Assembly (NCBI GenBank): GCA_030536315.1
Contig: JAUNQF010000002.1
Location: 1-64,000 of the forward strand
Direction: 5' to 3'
Origin: Coriobacteriia bacterium
GTDB lineage: Bacteria; Actinomycetota; Coriobacteriia; Coriobacteriales; Eggerthellaceae
Length of the DNA: 64,000 bases
The notes below the pieces were generated by a model that ran no database searches, had not been told where the DNA came from, and saw nothing but the letters and a program-made list of their open reading frames with translations. This document shows, piece by piece, positions 1 through 64,000 of the stretch (positions are counted from its first letter, which is position 1; each line of letters opens with the position of its first letter). The translations under genes were made by a program, and so were the position numbers.

Positions 1-2164
1 CAAGTTTATCGGCGGTTAGCTTCTCACCAACTTGAGCATAAACCGTATTCGAAGAAACTTCTGTAGCGCGCGAAAGAGTAATTCGCCCATATTCGGTTTT
101 CGCATAATTTGTAACCTTGCCACCATAAAAATCAAGCGTTCCAGGAGCGTCAAAAACATCATCTTCCTTGCAAACATTTTCCATGAAAGAGCTGGCCAAA
201 CTTAGGATTTTGAAAGTTGAACCAGGCGCGTAAAGAGCCTGCGAAGCCCTGTTAAACATTGCACTTGAATCTCCGCTTTGATCAGCCAGCAGCGATTCAA
301 TATCATTGTTATTATATGTAGGCGCCGAAGCCAAGGCCTTAACCGCACCATTGCTTGAATCCACAATTACGCACGCACCCTTACGGCCCGCGATTGCTTT
401 TTCAGCAGCTTCTTGAACATCAGAATCAATAGTGAGCGTTACATCGTTGCCTTGCTCAGTCTTACCCATCATATTATTTAGCACGTCTTGCCACGTGGCG
501 AAGTTCTGTTCGCCCTTTAAGGTATCATTGCAATGCGACTCAATTCCAGATGTGCCGTATTTAGTCGAAGCATATCCAATCAAGTGAGCAGCAAATTCGT
601 TTTCCGGATAAATGCGCTTATAAGTTCCATCTTCTTGCTTTTCGCTCTTGGCGAGGACCTTGCCGTCTTCGGTTTCGATGTTGCCTCGCTTGTTGTATTG
701 CTCTTTGATCAAAACATGATTATTACCTGGCATGTGTTTGATTTCATCCGCTTGAATAACCATAATATATGTGAGATTTGCAACCAAAATTGCAAACAAA
801 ACGCTAAACACAATCAAAGTTCCAGTTAGCCGCTTACCCAAACTAACGCGTCCCAAAACTCCGTTGCTAAACAAAATCTCGTTGGCTTTCAAATCATTTT
901 CGTGGCCCGTGCCTTCGTCACCACAACGAAGCAAAAATCCCACAATGATAAAACTTGCCAAAAGCGAAGAACCACCCTGACTTATAAATGGAAGAGTAAG
1001 ACCTGTCAGCGGAATAAGCTTCGTCACGCCACCAACAATGATAAAAGCTTGAAGGATTATCGTTGTGGTAAGACCAACAGCAACAAAAGAACTTACATCA
1101 GTTTTAGCACGAGCAGCAGATAGGAAGCCTCGAATTGCAAAGCACAAAAAGAGAAGCAAAACGGCGGCTCCGCCCAAAAGTCCAAGCTCTTCACAGATTG
1201 CAACGAAGATAAAATCACTCTCTACAACAGGAATTTGAGTGCATAAGCCTTGACCAATTCCTGTTCCAAAAAGGCCACCATCAGCCAGCGAATATAGCGA
1301 TTGAACCAACTGATAACCAGTTCCGGTTGGATCTTGAAAAGGGTCAAGCCAAATGCTAACGCGGTCTTGAACATGTCCGAAGAAAGAATAGAGAATAAAG
1401 CCCGCAACAACGGCCAAGCCACCAGCGGCTGCAAGATAGAACTTCTTTCCACTTGCAACATATAACATAGTAATAAAGACAGAGAAGAAAACAAGGGCGC
1501 TTCCCAAATCCTTTTCAAAAATTACAATTAAAATAGAAATTGCTCACATGATGAGCAATGGCATAATGGTGCGAAGGTCAGGCAACTTAAAGATGCCAAT
1601 TTGATGAGTGAAAACAGAAAGCATTTCTCGGTTGTGAGCTAAATAGCCAGCCAAGAAAAGCGCGATAGCAATCTTTGCAAGCTCGCCTGGCTGAAATGAA
1701 AAAGGACCAATGCCAATCCAAATTCGCGAGCCGTAAATTTCTTGACCAATGAACGGAATCAATGGCGAGAGCAACAAAATAAAACCAGCAATAGCCAAAG
1801 TGTATTTATAATTTGCTACTTTTGCAACAGCCTTTACTAAAACCAAGGTCAAAATCATGCAAACTACACCAGCAAAAAGCCACATTACCTGGCGAAGCGC
1901 CAGATCTTCGTTGATGCGTGTAATAAATGTAATTCCAATGCCTGTTAGCACTAGCACTATAGGCAAAATAACAGGGTCGGCCGAAGGTGCCAATTTTCGG
2001 ACGGCAAAATGAGCAAGCAAAAATGAAACAATTATTCCAATTGGAATTAAAACATTGCCAAGGGTTAAGTCAAGACCGCTTATAACAACAAGCATGCCAT
2101 ACATTATCATGACAATGACTGCTGCAATGCCAAGCAATAAAAGTTCTGTTGATCTTCGTGTCAT
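1..2164 (-). CDS. SEDS glycosyltransferase (FtsW/RodA) fused to a penicillin-binding protein (PbpA type), 3' end outside window
   Basis: Peptidoglycan polymerase and cross-linking transpeptidase in one polypeptide, in the cytoplasmic membrane. Residues 1 to about 395 form a multi-helix FtsW/RodA domain with the family motif TLPFISQGGSS near its end. The frame then runs on with no TAA, TAG or TGA into a further transmembrane helix and a PbpA-like domain, with SxxK as GSTFK (Ser about 649) and an SSN motif near base 60. The KTG box would lie outside the window. One in-frame TGA (about 1541-1543, MWAIS) is read as Trp. In most actinobacteria rodA and pbpA are separate neighbouring genes after fhaA-fhaB-pstP. 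The order is the same here but the two are joined. It follows the PP2C gene closely and is probably co-transcribed with it. The ATG at 2164 opens directly into the first membrane helix. The fusion is read directly from the sequence; which complex it serves is inference. Confidence 0.9.
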
Positions 2165-2168
2165 TTAA

Positions 2169-3284
2169 CTACTTCTTCCCCGAATTCAAACTTTGCTTTT
2201 TAGCGTTTTGCTCTTTTTGCTCTTGCGCTTCTTGCTTGTAATTATCAAGCGCACGCCAAGCGGCATCCAAATTATCAACGCGAATCACACCATCCTTAAA
2301 ATGTTCTTGAGTGCTTTCGCGAAGGTCTTTAACTCAAACATCGCTTCCATATTCTTTTTGCGAAAGGTCGAAGCCAGCGAAAGTGCCTGGCAGACCCTTA
2401 TAAATTGAGACATAACCTTCCTCTTCGCAAAGGTATGCCGAATTATTAATGATGGCCCCTGCGCCAACAACTCCTCCAATAAGAATAGCGACGGCAGCCA
2501 CAACAACAATTATTGCGTTTCGGCGCGACTTCTTAATTCCCTTCTTCTTTTTTGCACTAAATGAATTAAGATCGGCCACAATTACAGTGATGTTGTCCAG
2601 ACCGCCGAAGGAATTCGCCTGCTCAATCAACTTATTTGCGCATTCTTGTGGGTCTTGGACCTTGTTCATCCATCCTTCGATAATGTCATCTGTAAGCATT
2701 CCACAAAGACCATCAGAACATAAAAGCAAGCGGTCGCCTTCTTCGATATCAATCTCATATTGGTCGGCAAACATTTCAGGGTCGTTGCCAAGTGCCCTGG
2801 TAATAAGCGATCTATTTGGATGAACGCGAGCCTCGGCAGGAGTGATTTGCCCTTGCTCGATAAGATCGGCCATCAAGCTATGGTCGCGAGTAATTTGTTG
2901 CAACCTTCCATTGTGAAGCAAGTAAGCACGCGAATCTCCAACTTGAGCAATGCAAAGTCGATTGCCTTCAATAACGGCTGCGGTCATGGTTGTTCCCATG
3001 CCTTCTTTGCCCTTGCCTTCAAGCGCCGCCTTAATAATTTCTTGGTTGGCACCCTCAACAGCTTTGGCCAGGCCTTCGCAATCTGCCTCTCGAGGTGCAT
3101 TTTTACGCATGCTTTCAATTGCAATCTCCGAAGCCACCTCGCCAGCTGCATGTCCTCCCATGCCATCGGCCACAACGAAAAGTGGACTTTCAGCAAGAAG
3201 GCTGTCTTCGTTGTGCTCGCGAACTTGACCTATATCGGTCCTGCAACCATATCTTATGTCTTGATCAATTTTAGATTTAGGCAT
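2169..3284 (-). CDS. PP2C-family Ser/Thr protein phosphatase, membrane anchored (PstP/PrpC type)
   Basis: Dephosphorylates Ser/Thr-phosphorylated proteins, normally opposing PknA/PknB-type kinases that control wall synthesis. About 371 residues. The metal-binding PP2C motifs are intact: an early RxxNED, VADGMGGH at about residues 38-45, GDSRAYL, and late CSDGL and LDNITVIV segments. A single membrane helix at about 258-280 is followed by a Gln/Lys-rich tail that continues through one TGA (2334-2336, read as Trp) to a TAG at 2169-2171. I chose the ATG at 3284 because AGGG lies just upstream and its first codons overlap the fhaB stop, suggesting translational coupling. A start 18 bases earlier is possible. 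It sits between fhaB and the SEDS-PBP gene as in other actinobacteria. Confidence 0.92.
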
Positions 3285-3690: not shown

Positions 3691-3705
3691 GTCAACCTCG
3701 CTTTT

Positions 3706-11186: not shown

Positions 11187-11744
11187 TTAATCTAGAAATT
11201 GCTTAATGTAGCTGGTGATTTGCTCACAACATTTTTTTAAGTCATCGTTGCAAAAAATGACATCAAAAAGAGGTTTTTTATCTAATTCGCTCTTAACTAT
11301 TGCAAGACGCTTTTCGATATATTCAGGGCTTTCTGTTCCCCTTTTGAGTAATCGGTTACGAAGCTCATCTAAGCTTGGGGGTTCTATGAAAATCAAATTA
11401 GCTTGAGGAAATTCCTTCTTAACGTTTTCTGCACCATGAACATCAATGGCTGTAATAATGTTTTCGCCTGCCTCTAGCATTTCTTTGGCAAAAGCTTTTG
11501 GCGTTCCATAAAAGTTCCCAGCAAATTCGTTGTGCTCAACAAGTTCATTGTTGTCAATCATTTGCTTAAACTCTTCAGGAGTTTTGAAGAAGTATTGCAC
11601 ACCGTCAACTTCGCCTTCGCGAGGCGGACGCGTTGTACAAGTAACTCATCTTTTAAGTGATGGGATTTGTTTAAAAATTAAGGCCATCAAAGTGTCTTTT
11701 CCGACACCTGATGGCCCAGAGATTACGAATAGATTACTATTCAC
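11187..11744 (-). CDS. gmk: Guanylate kinase
   Basis: Phosphorylates GMP to GDP in nucleotide metabolism. 185 residues with P-loop SGPSGVGKDT (about 9-18), the GMP-binding TTRPPREGEVDGVQYFF block and a late FIEPPSLDELRNRLLKRGTE segment (lid). One in-frame TGA just before TCTTRPP (LKRWV) is read as Trp; without it the P-loop would be cut from the rest. The start is GTG at 11744, chosen because it lies 8 bases upstream of the P-loop strand and just after the mihF stop. No ATG fits the family N-terminus. Confidence 0.92.
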
Positions 11745-11751
11745 GTCAGGA

Positions 11752-12063
11752 TTAACCTAAACGCTCAAGCAAACCATCGATTTGGCGAGTGCCAAGACCT
11801 TGAACACGACGATTGTCAGCAATCTTAAGATCGGCCATGATCTTTTCGCACTTGACCTTACCGCAACCTGGAAGAGCTTCGATAAGAGTCTTAACCTTCA
11901 TACGACCAACAATAGGATCGTTAGCGCTGTTTAGAACAGCCTTAAGGTCTTTTTTGCCAGAAGCAATTTCCTTGCGAAGTTGAGCTCTCTTTGTACGAGC
12001 TTCTTTAGCCTTAGCAAGAGCCTTAGCGCGATCCTCTGGTGATAGTTGTGGTGGTGTAGCCAT
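11752..12063 (-). CDS. mihF: Actinobacterial integration host factor mIHF
   Basis: Nucleoid-associated DNA-binding protein found in actinobacteria, unrelated to the proteobacterial IHF alpha/beta dimer. 103 residues beginning MATPPQLSPEDRAKAL, with the helix-two-turn-helix region IEALPGCGKVKCEKIM and the C-terminal RRVQGLGTRQ segment that is nearly invariant in the family. I chose the ATG at 12063 rather than the longer frame because AAGGAG sits 6 bases upstream. Just upstream of gmk, as in other actinobacteria. It is one of the strongest taxonomic markers in the window. Confidence 0.95.
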   Translation of the reverse strand: MATPPQLSPEDRAKALAKAKEARTKRAQLRKEIASGKKDLKAVLNSANDPIVGRMKVKTLIEALPGCGKVKCEKIMADLKIADNRRVQGLGTRQIDGLLERLG

Positions 12064-12082
12064 ACTAATCTCCTTTTCTCTT

Positions 12083-12096
12083 GGGACAGAAGTCCC
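12083..12096 (-). promoter_or_regulatory. Small GC hairpin in the mihF leader
   Basis: GGGAC-TTCT-GTCCC on the minus strand, a perfect 5-base stem with a 4-base loop, about 10 bases before the mihF Shine-Dalgarno. Among AT-rich sequence it stands out. It may protect the 5' end of the message or modulate translation. Function not shown. Confidence 0.4.
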
Positions 12097-12107
12097 GCCT
12101 AACATTT

Positions 12108-12124
12108 GTACACATATCGTGTAC
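12108..12124. promoter_or_regulatory. Perfect palindrome GTACAC-N5-GTGTAC at the mihF transcription start
   Basis: Six-base arms around ATATC, just downstream of the -10 element, where an operator would overlap the transcription start. Candidate repressor site, possibly autoregulatory. The regulator cannot be named from the sequence. Confidence 0.4.
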
Positions 12125-12130
12125 GCTCGT

Positions 12131-12159
12131 ATTATACACAAAAAATAGGCTGTTTGCAG
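12131..12159 (-). promoter_or_regulatory. Promoter for mihF-gmk
   Basis: On the minus strand CTGCAA (12154-12159), a 17-base spacer and a consensus TATAAT (12131-12136). It lies between secA and mihF and faces mihF. The best-formed promoter I found beside that of sufC. Confidence 0.6.
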
Positions 12160-12257
12160 GAAAAATGTAATTTTTTTATTTCAAGCATCTGACCTGGTCT
12201 TTTAGCATTAAACGAAGCTTAAATCCTGGTAGATAATACAATTCCGAACATAATTTC

Positions 12258-15041
12258 TTACAAATTTGCGCCGTGACATTTTTTGAACTTTTTGCCAGAG
12301 CCACAAGGGCATGGATCGTTACGGCCAACGTTTGCATATGGATCATTTTTGTCTTTAACATATGTGCGAGCTTTAATCTCTTCCTTCGGAGCTTGCTTTG
12401 GCATACCCTTCGCATTTGATGCAGCCCTCGCAGGAGCCGGAGCCGCGTTGCGTTCCTTCGCATCCAAATTTTCTTCAGGGTTTGAATAATTAACATTATT
12501 AGACAAAGCAGACTTTTGCTCAGGCAAAGGTTGCTCGACAGCCATTTGCAAACGCAAAAAGGTGCGCAAGAAATCTTCATACATTGTCTCTGTCAAATTC
12601 TTGAAAGCCTTATAAGCCTCTTGCTTGTATTCAACAAGAGGATCCAACTGACCATAAGCACGAAGCCCAATACCTTGTTTCAAGTAATCCATTTCTTGAA
12701 GGTGAGACATCCATCGAGTATCCAAAATACGAAGCATAATTTGCGGCTGCAATACTTTCACAATTGGTTCAGACAGCTCTTCGCATTTTTCATCATAAAC
12801 GGTTTGCAAGTATGCAAGCAAAGCTTGAGCGGCAACTTCGACATCGCCATCATGAGAAATCGAAGCAAGGTCAAAGTCATTTCGACCGGTTAAGTTTGCA
12901 ACTCACAAATTAACATTCTTAATATCCCATTCATCTGCAGTTGATTTATCAGGACAATATTCACTCATAATGCGTTCAACCGCATCCTCAAACATTTCAG
13001 TTACACGCTCGCCTAAATCCTTGCCATCCAAAATATCATTACGCTCATCATAAATTGCTTTACGTTGAAGATTCATAACATCGTCATATTCCAAAACGTG
13101 CTTTCTGGAACCGAAGTGCATACTTTCAACTTGACGCTGCGCGCTCTCGATAGCTTTTGAAACCATACCAGCCTGAATTGGAGTGTCTTCGGGGATGTCG
13201 TTTTTCGCCATCATATTAGCGATGCTTTCCATACGAGGTCCACCGAACAGACGCATCAAGTCATCCTCTAATGAAAGGTAGAATTGCGTAACGCCAGGGT
13301 CTCCCTGCCTACCAGAACGACCACGAAGCTGATTATCAATACGACGAGATTCATGACGCTCTGTACCAATTACTGCAAGGCCTCCAGCTGACAAAACTGT
13401 CTCGCGCTCGCTTTCCGTAATTTCATTCGCACGAGCAAGAGCATCTTCCCTATCTTTATCAGTTGGAATCTTGGCTTCTTCGTCTTCCGGGTCGGCATTT
13501 AAATCAAAGCCATCCTCACGAAGGAAAGATAGCGCCATTCCTTCAGGATTACCACCGAGCAAAATATCTGTACCACGACCAGCCATGTTAGTAGCAATTG
13601 TTACAGCACCTGCACGTCCTGCCTGAGCAACAATCTCAGCTTCAAAAGCATGGTTTTTCGCATTTAAAGTGTTGTGCTTAATTCCCTGTTTATCAAGTAA
13701 GCGAGACAACCTCTCCGAATTTTCAATTGAAACAGTACCAACCAAGCAGGGCTGACCATTTTCATGACGCTCTTTAATATCGGCAGCAACTGCATAAAAC
13801 TTCGCATCTACATTTCTATAGACCAAGTCATTTTTATCATCACGGATAACAGGTTTGTTTGGAGGAATTGCAACAACTGGCAATTTGTAAATCTCACGAA
13901 ACTCAGCATCCTCTGTCATAGCTGTACCTGTCATGCCAGAAAGCTTCTCATAAAGGCGGAAGTAATTTTGAAGAGTGATAGTGGCCAAAGTCTGGTTTTC
14001 CTCTTTAATGGCAACGCCTTCCTTAGCCTCAATAGCTTGGTGCAAACCTTCGGAATAACGGCGACCTTCCATAATACGACCAGTAAACTCATCAACAATT
14101 TTAACTTCTCCATCAACAACAACGTATTCATCATCTCTGTGAAATAAAAATTGAGCACGAAGGGCTTGCTGCAAATGATTGGCTAACTGTCCCGAAGGAT
14201 CACTGTAGATATCTTCGATGCCTGTAGCAGCCTCAACTTTTGCAAGACCAACTTCGGTAGTAAATATAGTGTGCTTGGCTTCGTCCATTTCAAAATCAGC
14301 ACCAGGAGTAAGTCCAACAACTGCACGTGCAAAACTCTTATAGGTATCAGCTGCCTTGGTTCCAGCACCAGAAATAATAAGAGGCGTTCTTGCTTCGTCG
14401 ATCAAGATCGAGTCAACCTCATCAACGATAGCAAAAGTGTGTCCTCGCTGAACTCTCATATCCGCTTTTGTAACCATGTTGTCACGAAGATAATCAAAGC
14501 CAAATTCGCTGTTTGTTCCATATGTAATATCGGCTTGATATGCAGGAATTTTAGCAGCTGGCATCATACCATTTAAGATAAGACCAACCTTCATTCCCAA
14601 GAATTTATAAATTTGACCCATTCAAACACTATCGCGCTCTGCTAAGTAATCATTAACTGTAACAATATGAACATTATTTCCTGGAAGGGCATTTAGGTAG
14701 CCTGCCAAAGTTGAGACGAGTGTCTTACCTTCACCAGTTTTCATCTCGGCAATTTGTCCATCATTTAGAGCCATACCGCCAATTAGCTGGACATCAAAAT
14801 GCCGAAGACCCGTCGTGCGAACACTCGCTTCCCTAACAGCTGCGAAAGCTTCAGGTAAAATTGCCTTTAAGTCTTCGCCGTTTTCAAGTCTTTCCTTAAA
14901 CTTATTAGTTAAGTCTGCAAGCTGCTTATCGGTCTTTTTTTTCATATCGGCTTCTAGAGTGCCAATATATGCGGCCATATCCTGGTAGGCCTTCATCTGC
15001 CTACCTTCACCAGCCGTTAATATTTTTGACAATATACCCAC
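12258..15041 (-). CDS. secA: Preprotein translocase ATPase SecA
   Basis: Motor that pushes unfolded preproteins through SecYEG. About 927 residues: Walker [10 protein letters not shown] (from residue 100), the DEAD-like [16 protein letters not shown], the preprotein cross-linking and helical regions, [11 protein letters not shown] and [24 protein letters not shown] in the second motor domain, and a C-terminal zinc-binding tail [17 protein letters not shown]. Two TGA codons: 14622-14624 in AERDSVWMGQ, where SecA proteins have an invariant Trp, and 12903-12905 (NVNLW). The GTG start at 15041 has TATAAT only 8 bases upstream on the minus strand and no Shine-Dalgarno, suggesting a leaderless message. 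It carries the window's sole SecA. Confidence 0.96.
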
Positions 15042-15104: not shown

Positions 15105-18100
15105 TTAAATGTCACCAAAATACAAATTAAAACTCTTTAAAGACTCTTTACTTAATATTCTTGAATTAATCCTAAACAGCCTTAACAAAAACGTTTTCAA
15201 TGATATTCTGTGTCAATAATATAAATAAAACTTAAATGATATTAGTGCAATAAAAAATGCAATACAGGCAATAAATGGCGGTCAAATATTGTCTGAAGTT
15301 TTAGCTAATATGCCTGGAAGAGGTTCAGGATTATCTTTTTTAACCAACTCTAAAGTTTCTTTTTCATCAACAATGTCCTTATGGTCAATTACTAATTGCG
15401 AAAATTCATTTGAATAAATCTCAACAAATCAAACTAACTTGCAATTAACAAATGGCCTTGAATCTATCACTGTATCGATATCTACAAAACCAACACTATC
15501 GTTAGAAATAAATGAATCTAAAACATAATTATTTTTACTTTGAGAATTATTTGTAGGTATTATTTCTCCATTTTTTTGATTAACAAGTCATGCTTTAATA
15601 TCATAAGTTTGACCATTAACTAATCCGCCATAATATATTCTGTCATATACCTTTACATTTTCTCCTTCATTAATTTGTTGACTACCATCTTCACCCCTTG
15701 CTTCAGTCACACATGAACTTTTACTATTTACTCAATTTCCTCCAGCAATGTTGTAATCACTGTTTGATATCACAAAAGACCTAGTTCCAAATGGATAATA
15801 AGGTTGATTTTTAGAGACCAACAACTCCTCAATAATATAAGTACCATAAGGAATAGCTCCCCTTTCGTCATTAGCTTCACTAAAAACATCAGTTTTATTA
15901 TTCAAGCCGAACCAGCATCCAGACTCAGCTATCAGGGAACTTTCATCAGTAATTTGACCAGTAGTTTCATCAAATAGCGAATCATTGATATTTGTATTGT
16001 TTGAATGAGGATAATGTTTTGAAGACGTATCCACTACTCCACTTGTATCACTAACAACAATATGCCATTCTCCCGTACTTAAGCTTGTTATTTTAAAAGG
16101 GATATTGCTCATTTCGTGCATATTTTCATCTACCTTTGTAAAATTGTAATCTCCCCTAATTAAATCTTCTAGAGCAAGAACATAGTAATTGCCTGACTGT
16201 GGATCTTCGATGGTATCTAATCTTAAACCAGTGTCGCCATCAAATATAGATAAACAAGTTCAACGAGACGCGACGTCTTCGTCATATACTCAGATAATAT
16301 AATATTTATCACTAATAAGATAACCTTCTGGTGCTTTTATCTCATGAACCACATAGGTACCCATAGGATTGGCAACACAACCATCTTCATCATAAAAGAA
16401 ATCATCTCCATCAACTTTGTTATTTCTATATTCTTCACTAATACCAACTTTTCCATTTTCATCTGTCTTCATAACTCAATGTCTTTGATAACTTTCTTTG
16501 TGATAGTCAATTTCTGACTTCTTTTTAAAATAATCTGTATAAAATTTATAATCGTATAAAGCTCCTTCAAAAGAAGGCAAGCCCGCTCCAGGAACACCTG
16601 GTTCACCAATTTGACTATCGGCTTTTCATATTCCAATAGCAGTTGAATCATAAGATGGAATATCATAAGTTTTTAATCCCGTATCTCACATAACGGTATT
16701 TTCATACGAATTAATATTTTCTATATAAACACTACCAACTGTAGGGTTGTGCAAGTAATTTATGCCTGTACCACCATATTTTTCTCTAACATAATAAGTT
16801 CTATAAGCTTCTAAAGTATTTGTGTCAGTATGACCAAAACCATTTTCGTCAAGATTTATTCAAAAACCAGTTCAACTTTGACATTCCGAATCATAATATA
16901 TTTCATATGTGGCAGTCTTTAAAGTGTAATTATTGTTAGTCCTAGATCAATCAAGCAGCGAGTCTTTCCTCATCTGACAGCCACCCCTGGATTCATATTT
17001 AACTTTATAAATTCCACATGCTCCCTGACCTGTATAACCAGCTGTAGCTGTAACAAAACCTAAAAGAGCATATTGACGGTCTTCGTTAATAACAAGAATC
17101 TTTGTCCTAACTTCTTTATTGTCTCCGTCGTGAGCAGCTGGTGTTCCAATATGACCACACTTCAATGCTAAACCATCTGTCAATTCCCTAAAAACATTAA
17201 TTGGATAAAAAGTGAATAAATTATAAATTCTATTGCTTACATTCTTGAGATTAGATAAATCAACAGAACCGATATCATTTCAAATACTATTTGCAAATGT
17301 CTGCATATTTTCATCTGTAACAAAACCATTAACCCCATAAAGGCGATCTTGGTAAGGAGCAGAACTCGGTGTTTCATCATAATGAACACACATAACCTCA
17401 TTATATTTAGCTCCTACATAATTAAAATAACCACCACTTGTAGCGGCAAGATCTCTATTCAAGGAATATGGAAGTGCTGGGATATCATCTAACGGAGTCT
17501 TGAAGCCCGATTTGTTTTCGTCTTCGTTATTTTCAATCTTAACTTTTATAGATATCAAATTTGCTGGAGATTCATTTATTAATATAACACCATCACTATA
17601 ATACGATTTATCCGTAATATTTATATTATCATTAGCAAGAACTGATATCTGTTTACTATTTTCATTTTGGAAAGGAATAGCAATTGTTGTGTCTAAAGCA
17701 TTAAGCATGGGTGTTGCATTTTCTTTATTTGCCTCATCATATTCTATAGATATATTTAATGGCGTAGCAACTTTGTTATTAGAATTCATCCAAACACCGA
17801 TTAACATTTGCATTTGAACTTCAAGGACAGATTCCTTGTTTTCCAACCCCTTACTCTTTGTATAAGATTTAGGAACATAGATTAATCCAGTATCATAATC
17901 ATAAATGCAATCATTTAATACTTCACCATTGTAATTTGTACGTGCAAAAACAACATCTTGAACATGTCCTTGAACTGTATTTACATAACCAACATAATAA
18001 TCTGAATTTTCATCTAGTTCATACAAAACACAATAATCATCATACATTGCAATTTCTGCTTCAGAATAAGATCCATAATGCAATTCATCTAAAGTAGTAT

Positions 18101-18437
18101 CTGTATTCATTTTTGAAAGATCAGCTAAAGTTTGTTTTAGGATAATTATGTTTTTTGATTCAAACTTATTATTTTTACAATAATCTTGTTTGATATTTTC
18201 TTCAATATAATCTTTGTAAGAATAGCGATAATCTCGATTCAATAATAAAGAATTATTTTCATTGTTGCTGTTTAAGTCTCTTGAATTATTTATGTCTATG
18301 CAAGCATTATAAAAATCATCATTACTACTTGCTATGGCATTATCAACCAATTTTAAAACAACTAAAATAGATAAAAATAAAACTATTGTTATACAAACAT
18401 AAACTTTTAAACTTCTAATCCATTTGTTGTGCGTCAT
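15105..18437 (-). CDS. Large wall-anchored surface protein with SpaA/VaFE-type domains
   Basis: About 1110 residues, exported and probably sortase-anchored. An N-terminal membrane/signal segment (about 13-35) precedes a unique region to about 560. SpaA-type (Cna B-like, isopeptide-forming) modules follow, recognisable by GTYVVHEIKAPEGYLIS and GTYIIEELLVSKNQPYYPF, then a VaFE-like repeat with AWLVNQKNGEII and IDHKDIVDEKETLEL. Near the end, LAKTSDN precedes a hydrophobic helix, like the LAXTG sorting signals of actinobacterial class E sortases. By hand count about 15 Trp are TGA and 4 TGG. The last TGA (15213-15215) lies after the anchor helix; reading it as Trp adds about 36 residues to a TAA at 15105. 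It follows the regulator by 30 bases with AAAGGAG. The ligand is unknown. Confidence 0.82.
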
Positions 18438-21125: not shown

Positions 21126-21587
21126 TTAGAGAATTCCCAGGTCAGAGTTTTGGCCTAAAGCTTCGTAAGCAGCAACTGCAACCGCATTAGAAAGGTTCAA
21201 ACTCCGAAGCCCCGGCTTCATCGGGATTCGAAGGCAATTGTCCTTATTATCTTCAATAAGCTTGGGAGGAAGACCCGCAGTTTCTCTTCCAAAAACTAAT
21301 CATGAATTTTCAGTGAATTTAGCGGCTCGGAAGGATTTTTCCACACGCCCCGTAAAAAATCACATATCTTTACATTGATTTTCTTCAAGAAATTTATCAA
21401 GACTGGGTCAGCGAATAAGTTCTACCTTGTCTCAATAATCACAACCGCTACGAGAAAAATATTTATCGCTAAGTCTAAAACCAAAAGGCTCAACCATATG
21501 AAGCTGCGCCCCAATGCAGGCACAAGTCCGTGCAATGTTTCCTGCATTTTGTGGAATCTCTGGTTCAACTAAAACAATTTTTAACAT
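21126..21587 (-). CDS. trmL: tRNA (cytidine/uridine-2'-O-)-methyltransferase TrmL (SPOUT family)
   Basis: Methylates the 2'-OH of the wobble nucleotide 34 in tRNA-Leu. 153 residues, the normal length. Starts [20 protein letters not shown], the signature N-terminus; later [10 protein letters not shown] and [19 protein letters not shown] form the trefoil-knot SAM site. Several Trp are TGA (for example DYW, LIRW and SWLVFG), so no long open frame is seen with the standard code. The ATG at 21587 follows a weak purine-rich stretch. Divergent from the plus-strand gene at 21636. Confidence 0.9.
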
Positions 21588-24407: not shown

Positions 24408-26006
24408 ATTACAGCGTTTAAAAATAGAACTTCAGGCATACTTATGCCAATTTTTTCACTTCCAAGTAAAACTGGAATTGGAACTCTTGGAGAAAATGCC
24501 TATGAATTTATCCGATTTTTAAAAGAAGCGGGCCAAAAATATTGGCAGATTTTGCCAATTTGCCCTCCTTCGAAAGCCGATTCCCCTTATCTAAGTTATT
24601 CTTCGCGAGCAGGAAACCCAAATTTAATTGACATAGATTGACTTGTTGGAGATGGTTGGTTAACAAACGAAGATGTCCAAGACGCCAATATTATGCCTGC
24701 TCCACTTGCCGAAGACGAGGCAAGACGCTTCGGCAGCAAATTACCAAGTGCAAAAATTGACTATGAACAAGTCAAAGAATCTCGTGAAAAATTGTTCGGC
24801 AAATTATTTGTAAACTTCTTTAAGAAACTTCCAGATGATTATTCGACATTTTGTGAAGAACATGAAGATTGGCTAAACGATTACGCTTTGTTTATGACTT
24901 TGCTAAAGGAATTTGGCGGAGCAGAACTTCACGAATGACCTGATATTTATAAATATCGTGACAAAGAAGCGCTAAACGCTTATGCAAAAGAACACGAAGA
25001 CGAACTCAACTATCACAAAATGCTTCAATACTTTTTCTACACACAATGACGAAGCCTTCAAAAGTTCGCTCATGAAAACGACATCAAAATTATTGGAGAC
25101 ATTCCCCTATATGTTGCTCTAACAAGCGCCGATGCCTGGGTTGATCCTCATATTTTTGACATCAACGATGATTTCACGGTCTCTGTTTATTCTGGATGCC
25201 CACCAAACAAGGCTCATAACAAGCAAGGTAAGGGTCAAATTTGAGACAGCCCAGTTTATGATTGGGAATATTTGAAGTCCACAAATTATAGGTGGTGAAT
25301 AAATCGTCTTCGCACTGCTTTAGATTTGTATGACATTGTTCGCCTTGATCACTTTAAGGGTTTTGAAAAATATTACAACGTTTCAGCTGAAACTCGTGAT
25401 CCAAAATCTGGTGTTTGGAAGAAGGGCCCTGGTTTTGAATTTTGGCAAACCGCAGCGGATCAGCTTGGTTTTAATAGTGTCTCTGACATGCCAATATTTG
25501 CTGAAGACCTTGGCATTTATACGCCTGAGCTCAAAAAGCTTGTTAACGATTGCAACTTCGAAGGCATGAAGGTCTTGCAATACGCATTTAACGAAACAAA
25601 GCACGCTGATCAATACATTGGCGATGCTCGCAAAAGCTACAAGAACAAATACTTGCCTCAAAATTATGAAAAGCCATTTGTCGCCTATCTTGGAACGCAT
25701 GATACAAACACAATTATTGGATATATCGACGAAGCGCTTCCGGAAGTTCGCAAGAATTTTGAGAATTTCTACGAAGAAACTGATCCTCACAAATTGTTGC
25801 ATATAATGATGGATGACATTGTTCAAAGTGGTGCAAATATTTGTATCTTGATGGTGCAAGATTTGTTAGAATTGGCGCAAGATGCCCGCATAAATACTCC
25901 GGGCACAACAGGAATTAATTGAAAATGGCAGATGAGCTATGAGCAATTTAGCAGCTTGGATGCCAAAAAATTGTTAGAGATGACAAAAAATAGCGAAAGG
26001 TTTTAA
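24408..26006 (+). CDS. malQ: 4-alpha-glucanotransferase (amylomaltase, GH77), ATT start
   Basis: Transfers glucan segments between maltodextrins; cytosolic. About 532 residues. Catalytic motifs of GH77: VRLDHFKGF (nucleophile Asp), FAEDLG (acid Glu) and GTHDTNTIIGY. In-frame TGA codons fall exactly on family-conserved Trp: 25047-25049 (YTQWRS), 25242-25244 (GQIWDSPVYDW), 25296-25298 (second Trp of YRWWINRL) and in INWKWQM near the end. They are the cleanest evidence for the recoding. The family N-terminus SGILMP lies upstream of the first ATG (24444). No ATG, GTG or TTG is available in frame before it, but ATT at 24408 follows AAGGAG at 5 bases, so ATT initiation is likely. Abuts glgP. Confidence 0.93.
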
Positions 26007-31268: not shown

Positions 31269-32042
31269 ATGTTAGAGTTGAAAAACATAAGCTTTTCTGT
31301 TAAAGACGAAGCCACATCTAAGGCTCGCAAGATTATTGATGATTTGTCGCTAAAAATTGATGCTGGCAAATTAATTGTAATCACAGGTCCTAATGGAAGT
31401 GGTAAATCGACCCTTGCAAAACTTATTATGGGAATTGAACAGCCTACAAGTGGCCAGATTTTGTTCGAAGGCAAGGACATTACCGGCAAAAGCTTAACCG
31501 ATGTTGCAAACGCTGGTATTTGCTATGGTTTTCAACAACCTGCCCGTTTCAAAGGTATGACAATTAAGAAATTGCTTGATATTGCAGCTGGTAAGCGTCT
31601 TCCAATGCTTGCTTGTAATGAATACTTAGCGAAGGTTGGGCTTTGCAGTGCTGGATACTTGACTCGCGAAATTGATAAATCACTTAGTGGTGGAGAGATC
31701 AAACGCATTGAAATTGCAACTGTCCTGGCGCGTGACCCTAAACTTGCAATTTTCGATGAGCCCGAAGCTGGCATCGATCTTTGAAGTTTTGACAGACTGA
31801 CGCAGACCTTCGCCGCTATTCACGAAGAACATAAGGACAAAACCATCGTGATAATTTCGCATCAAGAACGCATTTTGGCGCTCGCCGATGAAATTATGCT
31901 TCTTGACGAAGGCAAAATCACCGCAAGTGGCACGCCAGATGAAATATTGCCAAACCTTGGTTTTGTTGCAAAGGAAAACCCAGATTGCCAATTGAGTGCT
32001 CCTACTGCCCTGCATGGAGCAAAGATTGCAACTACATGTTAG
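31269..32042 (+). CDS. sufC: SufC-like ABC ATPase for Fe-S cluster assembly
   Basis: Cytosolic ATPase that works with SufB on the scaffold for iron-sulfur clusters. 257 residues with Walker A GPNGSGKST (40-48), signature SLSGGEIKRIE and Walker B LAIFDEPEAGIDLW. The TGA at 31782-31784 supplies the Trp of GIDLWSF, a conserved feature of the short SufC-like clade. Only B and C partners are present with no sufD, sufS or sufU beside them, resembling the minimal SUF-like (Sms) systems described in anaerobes. First gene of an operon with sufB and rubredoxin. Confidence 0.88.
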
Positions 32043-36156: not shown

Positions 36157-37096
36157 ACTTATTAATTTCTGGAATATCTACTACCTTTTTCTTCTTCTCT
36201 TTCTTCTTCTTGTCAGCCTGCCACAAAATGTAGGCAACAATCATAACAATTACTATTAAAGCTACAAACCATCCTGCTCACGGGAATCCAAGTCAACCTT
36301 CCAAATCTTCAACCCCCGGCCAAGAATAACCATCATTAGTTTTAAAAATATCTTCATATGTTTCATCAGTAATTTCGGCAACCAAGACTGTTCTTGCTTC
36401 AGTTTCAGCTGTTGAACAAGTTGATAAAACTAACAAATGTTGATTTGGATAATAAGATGTATCCCTTCAATATAATGATTTATCATGAATTCTTGATAAG
36501 TTCTGAATCTTTGCAATCTCTGAGTTAATTCCAAAATTATAAATTACAGAATCTTTTGAAGTCGTTTTAATATATGAAAAAATTTTTAGGCCATGGTCTT
36601 TATCATTATAAAATAGATTGCCATACAAGTGTTCATTAAAAAATTCTTGTTTGTCAAACAAATCAAGATCACCTAACATAACATGGGAATCCATGTGATG
36701 TCCATACAAAATGCTCTTATAATCAGAAAAATCCGAACTGCAATTTGTATCCATAAATATACTGCCAATTATTGACGGCTTCCCAGTTGGATCGCGAAAT
36801 AAATAATAATCAGTATCTACGCTGCTATGCATAACTGGATAATCTATGCCAGTACCATATATGGTCACTCAACCTATTACGTCTGAATTTATCTCTCTTA
36901 GATCATCATATGACAATACATTATTGCTTGTAGGTTTATAAGCTTTTCAGTGAGAACCGCTAGCTTGTGTGTGTACTAACTTGGTATCTCATATGGCATA
37001 ACAACCAATAATGAGTAGCAAAACAAGGAAAACCATCACGGCAATGTTAATTAAAGAATTACAAGCCGCGATGATTTTCCTTCATGCTTTTTTCAT
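36143..37096 (-). CDS. Class B-like sortase (pilus or anchoring sortase)
   Basis: Membrane transpeptidase that cuts sorting signals and links pilins or anchors them to the wall. About 317 residues. N-terminal helix (about 8-32), the class B opening LREINSDVIGWVTIYGTGIDYPVM, catalytic His in YGHHM (about 133), Cys in LSTCS (227) and a downstream Arg in EARTVLV, then a C-terminal membrane helix (about 277-297) and Lys-rich tail. Two membrane segments are unusual for class B and recall pilus sortases. Eight or so Trp, mostly TGA; one TGA is the fifth codon (MKKAW). The start at 37096 is the only in-frame ATG near the helix. Confidence 0.85.
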
Positions 37097-38756: not shown

Positions 38757-39311
38757 CAATCCTATGACCTTACCTTCGGTCTTTTCAATTTCAACACATC
38801 CAAACGTCCTGCTATCTATTGCAATATCTCTGTTATCTCCCAATACAAAAACTTCGCCCTTTGGGACTATTAGGGGAAACTGAACCGCATCTTTTACCTG
38901 GGTTGTTTCTTTGGTTATATTGGGCTCACTCAACCTTGTTCCATTAACAAACAAACCACGAGAATCAATATTAACCTCGTCCCCCTCAAGCGCAATAACA
39001 CGAGAAACATTGGGTTTGTTATTATACCAAAAAACAAGCAAATCATTATTAAAAAATCGTTTATCTCACCTGTAAGAGATAACCATATCGCCATCTTTTA
39101 CAGCGGGACTCATTGACAAGTCGTTATAGCGATATGCGCCAAAAATAAAGCTAAATACCAGCACGAATGCTAGTGCTATAGCAGCTATCTTGATCAATAG
39201 CTTAATTACATCTTGCAAAAGCGAAGGCTGAGCAGTAGGCTGTGGTTGTTTTACCTGCTCAACAGTCTTATTTACTTCAGGAATATTTTTTAATCTCTTC
39301 TTTTTTAGCAT
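38736..39311 (-). CDS. Pilus-associated signal peptidase I-like protein lacking the usual catalytic Lys
   Basis: 191 residues, S26 family. A cytoplasmic Lys/Gln-rich N-terminus, one membrane helix (about 37-60), box B NDLSMSPAV (Ser66) and box E GDNRDIAIDSRTFG are present. In box D, normally KRVxxxPGD, the sequence is VSRVIALEGDEV, so the general-base Lys is Ser103. In Streptococcus pyogenes the pilus-locus SipA likewise lacks catalytic residues yet is needed for pilus assembly (from the literature as I recall it), so this may be a chaperone-like homologue. One TGA is read as Trp (ISYRWDK). The ATG at 39311 overlaps the adhesin stop by 7 bases. Confidence 0.82.
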
Positions 39312-42300
39312 ATAAAACCTTCTTTGATAAACAAATTATCGTTAAAAACGTCATCATCTGGGGAGAATAGTTTTCGTCTCCTTCTTCGAACGTTAATTAT
39401 TTTAATAGGTCCAGCAATCATTAATGTAAGCAAAACCGCAAGTATACATATCCACAAATCCGGATTCTTAAAAATATCAAAACCTGTTGGCGGTGTATCG
39501 TTATCATTTTTCATATAGAAGGAATTGGTTATGGTCTCGCCTGTTTGTTCATCGGTAACAAGTTGAATTAAAGACTCTCCGTTAGTGCTAATGTATTCTT
39601 TTTCTGCGGTTGGAGATACTGGCGTGTATACATCAGGCAAGTCAATTCCGGTAATTTCTGCTGTTACGTGATTAAAAGTTTGAACATAATCAGTGTCTTT
39701 TTCCTCTCAACCAAGGACTGAACCTCCATTTGGTGGCAAAATACTATATATTACAATGTAATCACCATTTGCTAAGTCAGGGTACTTATAAGTGTATGGT
39801 TCAGCTTGGCTTTCGCTAATTAATACTTCACCAGAACTATTTACTGTAGCATGAATGTCCAGCGTGGCTTCGGTACCAGAAACTCGATAAAGCTTACCAG
39901 TAAAAGTATCTGGAGGAGCATAAATTGTTCCATCAGGATTATGCAAAACAAGGCTCATTTCGAATTTCTTAGTCTTGTCTGCATATGTACCAACAGTATC
40001 TTTTGCAAGCATCAAAGTGTTTGACGGATTAACAACCTCAAAGTTAATTTGACCATATTTATCAGTAACCCCATCAGGAATTTCAGGAGGCATATTGGCT
40101 GCATATTTGGCTATGAAATCGTCATAAGCTTCAATCATAGAGCCTTCTTGATAATTATCATAATCATACGCAATTACGGAATACGCAATTGTTTTTGGCG
40201 AAAGATCAACTGCCTCGACCGTAACTAAAGTATCCAGCTGGACTTTTTGAATAACAACAGTATAACCATCTTCGACACTAATTACACCTTCGGCACCAGT
40301 GGTCTTTTCAGTTCTATTGCCATCTGGATCCTGGTATAAATAAGTTCCTTCAAAAAGCTTGGTGTCCGAAGGAGGATTATCACCTTCAACTACACCATCA
40401 AGATAAATCCTTATATCGGTAGGTTCTTCATCATGACCTATCTTATGTACTCGTGCTTCAAGAAGGTTTTCTTCGTTTACTACATTTATGAACTGGACGC
40501 CAGCTGTCTGACCAGCAATTAGGCCTTCTTCTTGACCATATCAGGAACCTTCTCCCGGAATATCAATTTTATTTGCAGGATGTTCTTCGTCATTAAGATA
40601 GACAACCCACTTAATGCCAACATCAACATCACGAGGGTCAAACTCAACCACTCGAAATTTTGTACCATCGTCAAAGCCCGTTAGCTGTGCAACTTGACCA
40701 TCTTCAATTCACACTACACCATTAACAGTTGTACCGCTTTTGCCAAGAGTGATTTGCTCAGCATGACGCGTGGCAATAATTTCGTCAGTATGACCACCTA
40801 CAACTCCCTCGTAGACATTATAATCACCATCATAGTCAATTCAGTAACCACCCTCTGTTTGAGTTGCATCTTCAACTCATTGCTGAGCTTTGTAGTAAAA
40901 TTTGCCTTCGGTTTGAGCATGTACAGATTCTGGAACATCAACAGTTTTACCAACTTCAATAGCACCTTCTGGAATTGTTGGAAGGTTAAACGCACAATAA
41001 CAATCGCTCTGACCTTCACCGCGCTCGAAATAATAGAATGCAAATGAGTGTGAAGTATAGTTCTTAAATATCTTATACGGAACATTTAGTTCATGAGAAA
41101 TCTCAGGATCAAACACGGGGTCAACATCAACTCATTCAAATTGGTCTGCAATCCCGGCATCTACATAACGTTGATATAAGCTTACATCTTCAACGACACC
41201 TGAAGTAGTATCTGATTGTCTCCTAACAATACCTGTTGAAAAATTTACATGGCCTTGACAAATACCATGAATACCACCAAGGTCCAAAACAAGTACACCA
41301 TCAATATAGAGATATACATCATCATCTCCCCTAAATTGGAAGGTCATGTCTTCTAAAGGACGCTCACCTCACTGAATTTGACCATTTTTTGGTTGGATGA
41401 AATTAGTTAGAATTTGCATGCCAAATAACATGTTTCGGTTATCTGCAACTGCGTTATCTTTATCATTTCATGGACCAAACTTAACTTCATCAGTACTTGG
41501 TTCAGTAAATAAAACAAAGTCACTGCCAGTGTCATAGCAGTCAGTACCCTCACCAGTTGCCGAACCAACGTTGTCTGCTTTTTTACGCAATTGTGCAAAG
41601 TGACCAGCATCTAATCCAGCCATACCACCACTATCAAAATAATAATATCCATTAGTGTCATATGTAGATTGGTAGAACAAATGATTTAGATTTCTGTAAT
41701 CCCGCTTATAAGGATTATTATTTTCTGTAAATAAATAGCTAAGATCAACATTCGATTTGTTTCAAATGCTATCTGGATTTAACTCGGGATAACCAGTGGC
41801 GCCTAATTTGTTTGCCCAAATACCACGCCGACAATATAAATCATGTCCTGTACCACCCGTGACAGTTCTGTTTATATTTTTCTCATTTCTATGCGATTCT
41901 TGATCTTCTCAATCCTCAACTTCACCACCATTACCATTTCTTGCACTTGAAAATTTAAAATCACTCTGAAGGTTTATTGCATTGTTATATCTATATGGTT
42001 GACGATTTCCGGAAGTTGTAGCAGTAAGGTCTCTCCAGCCATCATAGTCGAAACAGTTGATAGTAATATTTTGGGAAGCACTATCAACAGTTGGTGTAAC
42101 CGACTCACTTGAATAATCATATGTAATTGAAACACAAACTGGTGTTGACGCCGATCCTAGCTCTATTCATGTACCATTACCATTATCGTAATATCATGTA
42201 CTGTTTGCACACGTAAGACGAGTTGCTATATGATATTCTGGATCGGCCCCTTCTGCAGGCATCAAATATATGTAAGTAATGTAATAAACACAATCATAAG

Positions 42301-43351
42301 TTCCTATGCCTGGCTCTACTTGTCGAACATACCTTCCACAATAATTTTTAAATGTCATAGGAGAAGCACTTGTTGTACTTGATGAATGTTCTAAATTCAA
42401 ATCACCAGCAAAAGGTGGATCTAATTTATAATAATTTTGAGCAGTAATCGGAATACTTGCATCAGTATAGCAATACTGACAATATGCAGTTGGTGGCTTT
42501 TCGGCGCCATTATCTCAAACTGCTTTAAAATCAACCTGATCTAGGGCTTCTGTCCTGCCTTTTCTTGTAACATCTTTGAAAACAACTCAAACATCAGTTG
42601 CATTTTGTCCAGCTGCAGAATACAAATGTCATGGAGCAGCAGAAGTTTCGGAACCAAGATCGTTTCTATAAAACCATCCATAATTGTTGCCATAACGCGC
42701 ATATGTAAGCTTTGTTAGCTGCACGGCATTTGCAGCAGTAGCATCAGAACCTAAATAGCAATCACAAAAAGCATAAGTATGACCATCATATGTAAATGTT
42801 TCTTCGTAATAACGAACGTCTCAATGACTTCACTGAAAATCTGAAACGGTTGTAGCTTGAGTGCCTCCATCTTGGAAAATATAACCTTGACCAGAAGAAG
42901 TCAGTCTGGAATAATCTTTTTCGACAGATGCGGTTTGAAATGCCGGTATGTCAATAAAGTTGTCTTCTGTATCCAAGTAACCATAGTGAATTGTAGAGGT
43001 ACGTGTGGTTTGTCCAGTATATGAAAAGTTAACTGGATAAGTGCTTACATAGTTTGGATTTGAAATTTCACTGTTTATTTTAAATTGAGTTTCTGCTAAT
43101 TTTGCGGGATCGTCCTCAACTTCAGCGGTTTGGGTTTCGGTATCATCGGTTTGGGTTTGGGTGGTTTCGGTTTGGTTGGTTTGGAGTTTATTTATGAGTG
43201 GTTCCGATGTGCCATAGCCCATTGCGGCCGAGACAGACAAAAATACCATAAAGGCACTAAGGACAAACATGCCAAAGACAAAACGAATTTTGCTTTGGGC
43301 ATTTTCGCCAAAGTGTATAAAAGAACTATTATTTTTAGTAAAACCCCTCAT
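39305..43351 (-). CDS. Giant pilus-tip adhesin with fibro-slime domain
   Basis: About 1348 residues. Signal segment (about 24-46), Thr/Gln-rich linker, a long unique region, a fibro-slime/PA14-like domain around residues 600-800 with FRGDDDVYLYIDGVLVLDLGG, then repetitive Ig-like/Cna B-like modules, the sorting motif TPPTGF, a helix and an RRRRR stop-transfer followed by an unusual 25-residue tail. By hand count about 17 of 22 Trp are TGA, so the gene is unreadable with the standard code. The ATG at 43351 (or TTG just before) has no clear Shine-Dalgarno. First and largest gene of the pilus operon, hence the probable tip. The receptor is unknown. Confidence 0.8.
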
Positions 43352-43414
43352 CAAACTAAAAATTTAATAGAACATAAATACGTTTTTGCTACTTTTTTAT
43401 TCTATTTTGTGTAC

Positions 43415-58893: not shown

Positions 58894-58902
58894 CTACAAA
58901 TC

Positions 58903-62673: not shown

Positions 62674-62681
62674 ATTCCTTC

Positions 62682-63509
62682 CTATTCTTTCATCAATTCA
62701 ATATCGCTATCTTTAAGTTTAGCCCATTTTCCGCATTCTAGATTATCTAATTTTAAATTGCCGATGCTGATGCGTTTTAGCAACAAGACATTGAATCCAA
62801 CAGCTTCAAACATGCGTCGAACCTGGCGGTTCTTGCCTTCGTGAATTTCAATTTCAACACGGCTAAATTTCTTGTCAATCAAATCCTTCTCTTTTGGAAG
62901 CGCAGAAGAATCATTCTTGGTTGCACAATTCTTGAAAAATTCATTTTCAAATTCCAAGTATTTGTCAAAACCAAAATGCTCAAGAATCTTTAATTTCGAA
63001 GGCGAGGTCTTACCTCCAAGAATTTCAACACCCTCGGTCAACTTTTTATATGCCTCCGAAGACGAGGTCAGCTCCCCATCAATCACTGCTTCGTATTTTT
63101 TACCAACCTCATTTTTAGGATGAAGCAAATCCTGTCCAAGCTGGCCATCTGTTGTAAAAATCAACATACCACGCGTTAACCTGTCAAGCCTTCCAACAGG
63201 GAAAAGCGAAGGATATTCATCAACTGGAATAAGGTCTGCAACACAGGGACGACCTTGAGGATCGTTCATCGTGCTAACATAACCCGCAGGTTTGTTTAGC
63301 ATCAAAGTTATGTTTTCGTTTGTGGGCTTAATTACTTCGCCGTCAAATTTAACAACATCATTTTCGGGATCAACCTTTGTCCCCATCTTCGTTGTTATTT
63401 TGTCATTGACAGAAATCCTGCCTTCTGTGATTAACTTTTCACAGGAACGACGCGAAGCAATTCCGCACCTCGCAAGGTATTTTTGTAGCCGAAGCTCTTG
63501 GTTACTCAT
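62682..63509 (-). CDS. rluB: rRNA pseudouridine synthase, RsuA/RluB family
   Basis: Converts uridine to pseudouridine in 23S (RluB) or 16S (RsuA) rRNA. 275 residues: an N-terminal S4 domain (RLQKYLARCGIASRRSCE), and the catalytic GRLDRLTRGMLIFTTDG with the nucleophilic Asp. GKNRQVRRMFEAVGF is the family's last conserved block. An insertion around 175-200 (acidic/Lys-rich) is unusual. Overlaps scpB by 8 bases. No TGA codons. Confidence 0.92.
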   Translation of the reverse strand: MSNQELRLQKYLARCGIASRRSCEKLITEGRISVNDKITTKMGTKVDPENDVVKFDGEVIKPTNENITLMLNKPAGYVSTMNDPQGRPCVADLIPVDEYPSLFPVGRLDRLTRGMLIFTTDGQLGQDLLHPKNEVGKKYEAVIDGELTSSSEAYKKLTEGVEILGGKTSPSKLKILEHFGFDKYLEFENEFFKNCATKNDSSALPKEKDLIDKKFSRVEIEIHEGKNRQVRRMFEAVGFNVLLLKRISIGNLKLDNLECGKWAKLKDSDIELMKE

Positions 63510-64000
63510 CTTCGGTGTTTAATTTAATTTCATCAAGATTGACTTTTTCAGTAACTCCGAATGCTCCAGCCAATGCACTTTCAAACATATCTTTAGAATC
63601 AAGTTCTGGCTTTTCTTCAGAAGAGCTATCCCCAACTTCGCTTTCAAACGCTTCCATCTGATCAAGTTGATCAGTTTGAGTTGCGCTCAAACGCTCAAAG
63701 ATAAACCTCTTGGTTTCTTCATCCGGAGCGAAGTCTTCGATGTTCGGCAAATCCTTGATAGAGTTAAGGCCGAAGTTTTCAAGAAACTTATTTGTTGTGG
63801 CATAAAGGATTGGACTTCCAGCAGTGTCGGCAACGCCAGCTTCCTTAACAAGACCTTTTTCGATTAGCGAATTGATGGAGCTGTCGCTGTTAACTCCACG
63901 GACAGAAGCCACGCCAGCGCGAGTAACAGGTTGACTATATGCAATGATTGACAAAGTTTCAAGTGCTGCAGCAGATAATTTACGAGGGTCAAGAGACAAA
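63502..64000 (-). CDS. scpB: Chromosome segregation protein ScpB, 5' end outside window
   Basis: Kleisin-partner of ScpA in the SMC condensin complex. The window holds about 165 C-terminal residues: ALETLSIIAYSQPVTR, GVNSDSSINSLIEKGLV and ILYATTNKFLENFGLNS, the second winged-helix signature. An acidic tail follows. The true start lies beyond base 64000; the TTG at 63999 is not a start. Neighbour order scpB-rluB is conserved in actinobacteria. Confidence 0.93.
   Translation of the reverse strand, partial: LSLDPRKLSAAALETLSIIAYSQPVTRAGVASVRGVNSDSSINSLIEKGLVKEAGVADTAGSPILYATTNKFLENFGLNSIKDLPNIEDFAPDEETKRFIFERLSATQTDQLDQMEAFESEVGDSSSEEKPELDSKDMFESALAGAFGVTEKVNLDEIKLNTEDE

Follow-up and report, generated by a model that had tools for sequence, protein, structure and literature searches.

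The window analysed here is a stretch of 64,000 nucleotides from the draft genome of a Coriobacteriia bacterium (contig JAUNQF010000002.1, contig C5:1-64000 of the assembly), and its subject is the codon UGA, which a first-pass annotation had read as tryptophan (Trp) across the segment. The source assembly contains 31 contigs with 1,089,702 bases at a completeness of 75.36%, and the G+C content is about 39-40%. Several genes had been reported as interrupted by TGA at conserved Trp positions. The secA gene (12258..15041, minus strand; NCBIfam SecA, 1130.8 bits) carries TGA at codons 140 (14622-14624) and 713. The malQ gene (24444..26006, plus strand), matched by the 4-alpha-glucanotransferase profile, carries six TGA codons, among them codons 202, 267, and 285 at 25047, 25242, and 25296. 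Three further genes keep the names given by the first-pass annotation. These are a glgP-like phosphorylase (26008..28368, plus strand; TGA codon 158 at 26479-26481), a sufC-like ATPase (31269..32042, plus strand; TGA codon 172 at 31782-31784), and an ABC permease (34103..35443, plus strand; TGA at 34154 and 34433). All the reported sites were correct. Trp was found opposite both TGA codons of secA, all six of malQ, and the listed codons of the glgP-like and sufC-like genes in the relative described below. The permease codon at 34433-34435 reads VWFG, and the permease has no ortholog in the relative's contig.

The nearest named relative found is contig L049 (JAUNNF010000011.1, Coriobacteriia bacterium isolate S32M_St_metabat_43). 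It belongs to the same family, which is probably Eggerthellaceae, is syntenic with the window, and encodes a glgP-like protein with 77% identity and a SecA with 78% identity. Among 119 genomes of the family, the SecA identity to the others was at most 74% in the full-length matches listed, and partial matches reached 85% (genome G252). The genome of L049 is G308, and its prfB place and score are the same as in G252, a genome of the window's family. The relatives found lie in Coriobacteriia, which supports the placement of the host in this class and not in Mollicutes. No further genome of the genus was present among 395 genomes of the order. In the relative, TGA is the stop codon in 37 of 328 mechanically called open reading frames (ORFs), and in 6/62 where the C-terminus was aligned. 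The relative ends ORFs at TGA and keeps release factor 2 (RF2), and therefore reads the standard code. A close, syntenic relative with RF2 and UGA stops provides a clean before-and-after pair.

The meaning of UGA was determined by comparing the ORFs of this genome (the window plus 400 kb of other stretches) with the ORFs of the relative under genetic code table 11 (20 stretches plus L049, 418 kb). A bias towards Trp was avoided by writing every TGA as X in the translations. Reciprocal best pairs numbered 77. Trp was opposite TGA at 66 of 101 aligned letters, with 8 further gaps, and opposite TGG at 106 of 161 letters, with 11 further gaps. The rate is the same for both codons. With L049 alone, the values were 15/20 for TGA and 24/32 for TGG. 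Sorted by pair identity, the TGA letters met Trp 16 times and other residues 19 times below 40%, 13 and 4 times at 40-55%, 29 and 11 times at 55-70%, and 8 and 1 times above 70%. For other codons, such as GGA, CGA, and TTA, the standard residue was the one most often opposite. Glycine was opposite TGA at 1 of the 101 letters and serine at only 4. Genetic code 25, in which UGA encodes glycine, is thus rejected, as the first-pass annotation had argued. These data indicate that UGA is, close to certainly, an ordinary Trp codon in this genome.

Within the window, the ORFs called mechanically under code 4 number 45, and 32 of them hold at least one TGA, with totals of 101 TGA and 106 TGG codons. 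These ORFs start at the first possible start codon, and a few of the TGAs may therefore precede the real start codon of their gene. The claim that broken genes become full-length when TGA is Trp is confirmed. The summed length of stop-to-stop ORFs of at least 200 codons, overlaps counted, was 39,396 bases under table 11, 67,170 with TGA read, 56,634 with TAA read, and 44,652 with TAG read. Reading TAA as sense also lengthens the ORFs, less than TGA does. TAA and TAG remain stops. Among 394 code-4 ORFs, 306 end with TAA and 88 with TAG, a list from which TGA ends are excluded by construction. Because such a list cannot show TGA ends, the ends of orthologues were compared in 53 pairs in which the C-terminus of the relative was aligned to within 5 amino acids. 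In 50 of the 53, the orthologue in this genome stops within 10 amino acids of the relative's end. The remaining three extend by 15, 67, and 764 amino acids, with no TGA in the first 12 codons past the alignment. The 53 ends therefore show no sign of TGA stops, in agreement with the earlier statement that no gene ends at TGA.

The release factor genes were then compared. The prfB profile, which represents RF2, matched one protein in this genome, under the prfB cut-off. The same protein, whose gene contains one TGA, reached 486.8 bits against the prfA profile with its cut-off of 423.25, and it is therefore release factor 1 (RF1). In the order, prfB is above its cut-off in 285/297 genomes; this genome is among the 12 below it, and the nearest relative is above. 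In L049, secA (2256-5075), prfB (1187-2317), and a gene for an mIHF-like protein (762-1160) follow one another, all on the minus strand. In the window, the prfB site is empty, and about 190 nucleotides (12064..12257) separate secA from the start of the gene that we take to be mIHF-like (11752..12141, minus strand; 71.6% identity to L049 1088-765; likely start near 12063). Beyond it lies a syntenic gene, presumably guanylate kinase-like (11187..11744, minus strand; 55% identity to L049 759-226). A tblastn search with the RF2 of L049 gave no match in this gap of about 190 nucleotides at E up to 10, nor anywhere in the window at E up to 1. The absence of RF2, which had been named as a check of the Trp reading, is thus confirmed as far as the 75% complete assembly extends, with only RF1 found and the syntenic site empty. 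The local deletion of prfB at this site is independent of assembly completeness.

The in-frame TGAs could in principle be assembly errors, pseudogenes, or the product of a mixed bin in an organism with the standard code, and a draft genome in 31 contigs gives some room for this. The probability of this explanation is negligible. TGA stands opposite Trp as often as TGG does, over 32/45 ORFs of one contig, and RF2 is missing from its precise place on that same contig. A separate observation concerns the RF2 motif. The textbook RF2 motif is SPF. SPT stands in its place in each of the 33 RF2 ORFs found, which come from L041-L049, L058, and 23 loci in the range L061-L089 (L049 and L058 are the same gene).

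The assembly contains 37 tRNA matches, all of which were read as sequences. One of them has the anticodon UCA, the only one of its kind in the set, and is present besides tRNA-Trp(CCA). It is located at contig C4:4024-4119 on the minus strand and is 96 nucleotides long. Its predicted structure (RNAfold, -33.8 kcal/mol) contains an acceptor stem, a D arm, a UCA arm (CCGGU-CUUCAAA-ACCGG), a second arm with a hairpin of 5 base pairs (CUCGU-GUCCAAA-GCGAG), and a T arm. The loop of the second arm equals the anticodon loop of tRNA-Trp from U33 to A38 (U-CCA-AA). The acceptor stem ACCUCCU/AGGAGGU has 7 base pairs with A1-U72 and is followed by G73, which matches the ends of canonical tRNA-Trp(UCA). 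The canonical molecule is a class I cloverleaf of about 76 nucleotides with a short variable loop, a form that this tRNA of 96 nucleotides with a second hairpin does not have. A tRNA-Trp with a UCA anticodon had been named as a further check; the UCA tRNA exists, but it is of a two-armed type seen in phages and not a plain tRNA-Trp(UCA).

Contig C4 carries chromosomal genes, which encode a gltS-like protein, FtcD, UDP-galactopyranose mutase, phosphate acetyltransferase, and YhgE/Pip, and several of its genes carry in-frame TGA. A BLAST search with the UCA tRNA gave no match in the 99 other genomes of a set of 100. An exact two-arm pattern, which misses variants, matched 1 of 395 genomes of the order and 1 of 396 genomes of the phylum, the own genome each time. 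Searches of named phages and plasmids gave no record at 80% coverage. The unique tRNAs of both genomes were compared, 37 from this genome with the query counted and 39 from the relative. Among them, the own tRNA-Trp scored best against the UCA tRNA, tied with the identical copy of the relative. Descent from the own tRNA-Trp was rejected, as only 53 of 75 aligned positions match and the acceptor stem is different. A TrmL-like methyltransferase of tRNA position 34 is encoded in the window (21126..21587, minus strand; 178.4 bits, curated cut-off 190.6; 4 TGA codons) and might modify U34 of the UCA arm.

The UCA tRNA resembles a selenocysteine tRNA (tRNA-Sec) in its anticodon, its long extra arm, and its length of about 96 nucleotides, and ARAGORN with table 11 assigns the label SeC both to it and to the phage members described below. 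UGA would then encode selenocysteine or be ambiguous. This is highly improbable. The tRNA scored 42.1 bits against RF01852 with its cut-off of 47, and a tRNA-Ser of the same genome scored 42.3. It differs from tRNA-Sec by the 7-bp acceptor with A1-U72 and by the UCCAA loop of the second arm, and Trp was opposite TGA at 66/101 letters. A SelB pathway would compete for UGA; no SelB was found above the cut-off in this draft genome, whereas G252 and G001 have SelB. Selenocysteine at UGA is rejected for this genome by the tRNA-Sec score and the missing SelB. The tRNA-Sec of the nearest relative, G252 (L093 1501-1597; C6:15597-15689), is located between selB and a yedF-selD-like pair and has the anticodon CUA instead of UCA. 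The sister lineage may therefore encode selenocysteine with UAG, judging from this tRNA, which would free UGA from selenocysteine.

UGA could also be read by another tRNA, with the two-armed tRNA as a bystander. The reader would then be either a near-cognate tRNA-Trp(CCA) or a plain tRNA-Trp(UCA) encoded in the quarter of the genome that the assembly lacks. The completeness of 75.36% and the total of 37 tRNA matches leave space for such a tRNA. This explanation is regarded as improbable, since a cognate UCA tRNA is present and the tRNA-Trp(CCA) is ordinary, with an anticodon stem of 5 base pairs and a sequence identical to that of the standard-code relative. Where an ordinary UCA tRNA is lacking, a tRNA-Trp(CCA) with a 4-bp anticodon stem is another known route to reading UGA as Trp. 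Here the stem has 5 base pairs and a UCA tRNA exists, so near-cognate reading by a 4-bp-stem tRNA was rejected.

Similar tRNAs were identified in phage contigs of IMG/VR. A pattern for the UCA arm that left everything between this arm and the T arm free gave 49 stretches, and two patterns with other stems gave 14 and 5. The distinct UCA arms, collected without regard to the second arm, comprised 42 with a long arm and 13 short ones without it. TCCA is present in the second arm of 28 of the 42 and absent from 14. All 27 TCCA-bearing tRNAs with a readable 3' end have U72-G73, and all 14 without TCCA have C72-G73. Five of these 14 were compared with Rfam, and 5/5 were tRNA-Sec. By the test used, no acceptor stem was found in 5/42, namely L188, L211, L219, and L229, which do not contain TCCA, and L242, which contains it and is truncated by the end of its contig. 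The counts for set A differ by rule, with 20/27 by unique tRNA with an acceptor stem and 17/27 by distinct arm. In control long-arm tRNAs, TCCA occurred in 0/12 Tyr, 1/46 Ser, and 2/27 Leu. The UCA tRNA of this genome fits the definition of the phage two-armed group, with a UCA arm, a second hairpin loop with UCCA, and U72-G73. Six two-armed tRNAs were also compared with Rfam; four were above the tRNA cut-off, and two (L187, L213) were undetected. The latter result is in line with remarks in parts of PMC7886860 and PMC12386605 on recoded phages without a detectable suppressor.

The second stem was analyzed in 46 two-armed tRNAs, consisting of the one in this genome, 19 of set A, and 26 of set B. 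The stem is paired at 90% of positions, compared with 49% after shuffling, and 0 of 2000 shuffles reached the observed value. The loop is kept while the stem varies with compensation. Because the 26 of set B were selected by TCCAA, these statistics do not measure the frequency of the loop. A BLAST search with one phage member gave tRNA-Trp in 14 of the best 20 of 22 matches, with 82-89% identity. Another phage member gave tRNA-Trp in all 20 listed of 146 matches, at 82.8%. In both cases, the aligned part begins only near the second arm and runs to the 3' end. The second arm therefore seems to be the original anticodon arm of a tRNA-Trp, ahead of which a UCA arm was apparently inserted. One of the best 20 of the 22 matches was annotated as an attachment site (att) in tRNA-Trp(CCA), and an origin of the second arm from a phage attachment site was considered for this reason; the compensated variation of the second stem speaks against it. 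L242 and L254, contigs of different datasets, share the same second-arm sequence, so the two-armed tRNAs are not all independent cases.

The coding of the surrounding phage loci was also compared. After 5 of 46 loci were dropped as too short, TGA was the best reading in 19/41. TAA often gains more in AT-rich loci, and therefore only the 16/41 with a clear gain over both table 11 and TAG were counted. The same test on tRNA-Sec control loci was passed by 2/8 (L200 and L232, both above 60% G+C). The phage tRNA closest to the bacterial UCA tRNA is L270, with 81% identity over its length. Its locus is one of these 16, and the coverage there rises from 0.08 under table 11 to 0.59 with TGA read. Four of eight code-4 phage proteins matched PHROGs families, one of them weakly, and four matched nothing. 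In L286, a large terminase in which 10 codons differ from table 11 was matched to phrog_6681 along residues 43-663. In L225, the ORF at 6203-7909 contains 11 TGA codons, lies directly before a two-armed tRNA, and matches the heptose-phosphate kinase/adenylyltransferase and phosphoheptose isomerase families.

We consider one combined explanation probable, in which UGA encodes Trp, RF2 was lost, and the two-armed tRNA decodes UGA via its UCA arm, is charged via its CCA arm, and has a phage-linked source. Passages of PMC9976931 describe that bacterial tryptophanyl-tRNA synthetase (TrpRS) reads the anticodon and G73, that the first base pair is also a Trp identity element, and that the Bacillus subtilis enzyme is aided by the pairs G2-C71, G3-C70, and G4-C69. 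A tRNA with UCA alone would be expected to be a poor substrate for an unchanged TrpRS. In the proposed mechanism, the UCA arm would pair with UGA on the ribosome, and the CCA arm would supply the C34-C35-A36 identity that bacterial TrpRS normally needs; because of this supply, TrpRS would have had no need to change. A phage would be unable to change the TrpRS of its host, and retaining CCA in an additional arm of the tRNA would solve the charging. A cell that received such a tRNA and dropped RF2 would read UGA as Trp immediately. The bacterial tRNA would come from phages that encode tRNAs of this type and in which TGA is read through, or have its origin in common with them. With the tRNA established and RF2 lost, UGA could have spread through the genes as Trp, with RF1 staying for UAA and UAG. 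That the cell changed its code by capturing a phage's two-headed opal-suppressor tRNA, with UCA for the ribosome and CCA for TrpRS, is given an even chance. The role of the second arm in charging and a transfer from phage to cell are both inferred, and transfer from host to phage is also possible because no donor was found. If true, the same design would explain the Trp charging of phage UGA suppressors in unmodified hosts and why some of them escape detection. It would explain, in concrete and testable terms, the takeover of a stop codon without a change of TrpRS, and would link cellular code change with phage recoding.

An adapted TrpRS offers a different account of the same tRNA. The mycoplasma TrpRS is assumed to be adapted to the UCA anticodon, and Mycoplasma-type tRNA-Trp(UCA) works without a second arm. 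If the TrpRS here were likewise adapted, UGA would still be Trp, the second hairpin would be merely a long variable arm, and its UCCAA loop would be a relic or have another role, such as stability, modification, or processing. The 13 short armless UCA tRNAs in phages are in favour of this account, as is the mycoplasma case. It is nevertheless rather unlikely, since compensated changes occur in the stem but the loop stays the same, and since U72-G73 accompanies the loop in 27/27 long-arm UCA tRNAs and C72-G73 its absence in 14/14.

Several points weigh against decoding and charging by a two-armed tRNA of phage-linked source. Contig C4 is tied to the genome solely through binning, G+C content, and the in-frame TGA in its genes. 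Only a single C4 protein had a match in the stretches sampled from the relative, with 39% identity, and the 2 TGAs aligned in it were opposite Tyr and not Trp. The acceptor ACCUCCU does not have the three G-C pairs that help the B. subtilis TrpRS. The long arm and G73 could invite seryl-tRNA synthetase, though serine was opposite TGA only 4 times. In phages, 25/41 loci with two-armed tRNAs showed no clear TGA gain, and the 13 UCA tRNAs without a long arm indicate that the second arm is not the sole solution. The closest phage tRNA is 81% identical, and thus no donor is identified. The assembly is 75% complete, and its missing part could contain a displaced RF2 or a plain tRNA-Trp(UCA); the empty syntenic prfB site argues against the displaced RF2.

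Compared with the bacteria known to use code 4, the host here is a member of Coriobacteriia with about 39-40% G+C, and its UCA tRNA is two-armed, whereas theirs has the plain tRNA-Trp form. According to parts of PMC8629427 and PMC13092985, the code-4 bacteria are Mycoplasmatales, Entomoplasmatales, several insect endosymbionts, and the family JAKLIH01 of Patescibacteriota. JAKLIH01 is similar to this genome in that UGA is Trp, RF2 is absent, a UCA tRNA is present (2/4 genomes), and UGA stops are absent (the same two sources, in part). The opal suppressor tRNAs of TGA-recoded phages, crAss-like and others, also place Trp at TGA by a UCA tRNA, and the same two-armed design is found in IMG/VR contigs; here, in contrast, the neighbours of the UCA tRNA are chromosomal genes, and the cell has no RF2. 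The parts of PMC7886860 and PMC12386605 concerned with recoded phages report no detectable suppressor in some of them and do not describe a second anticodon arm. No report of UGA as Trp in Coriobacteriia was found in the PMC full-text literature, at the level of titles and abstract starts and with subscription papers and preprints outside it. A PMC full-text search for tRNAs with two anticodon arms gave, at the same level, a single paper on a chloroplast transcript, and such a tRNA is not described in the sections seen of a review on non-canonical tRNAs (PMC7609411). The main text of PMC8629427 contains neither 'Coriobacteri' nor 'Actinobacteri', and the available text of PMC13092985 contains none of 'Coriobacter', 'Actinobacteri', and 'Actinomycet'. 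That paper refers to a supplementary table of 201 UGA-to-Trp genomes from four phyla and about 30 genera, in which this lineage may already be present. With UGA as Trp in Coriobacteriia, the lineages named in the texts of these two papers would be joined by another. Table 11 applied to this lineage leads to broken proteins in the databases.

Genes for cell-surface proteins are among those with the most TGA codons in the window. A VaFE-repeat surface protein with a profile match (15105..18437, minus strand) has 14 TGA codons, and a class B sortase with a profile match above the cut-off (36143..37096, minus strand) has 7. A large protein (39305..43354, minus strand) has 17, and its fibro-slime-like domain scores under its curated cut-off.

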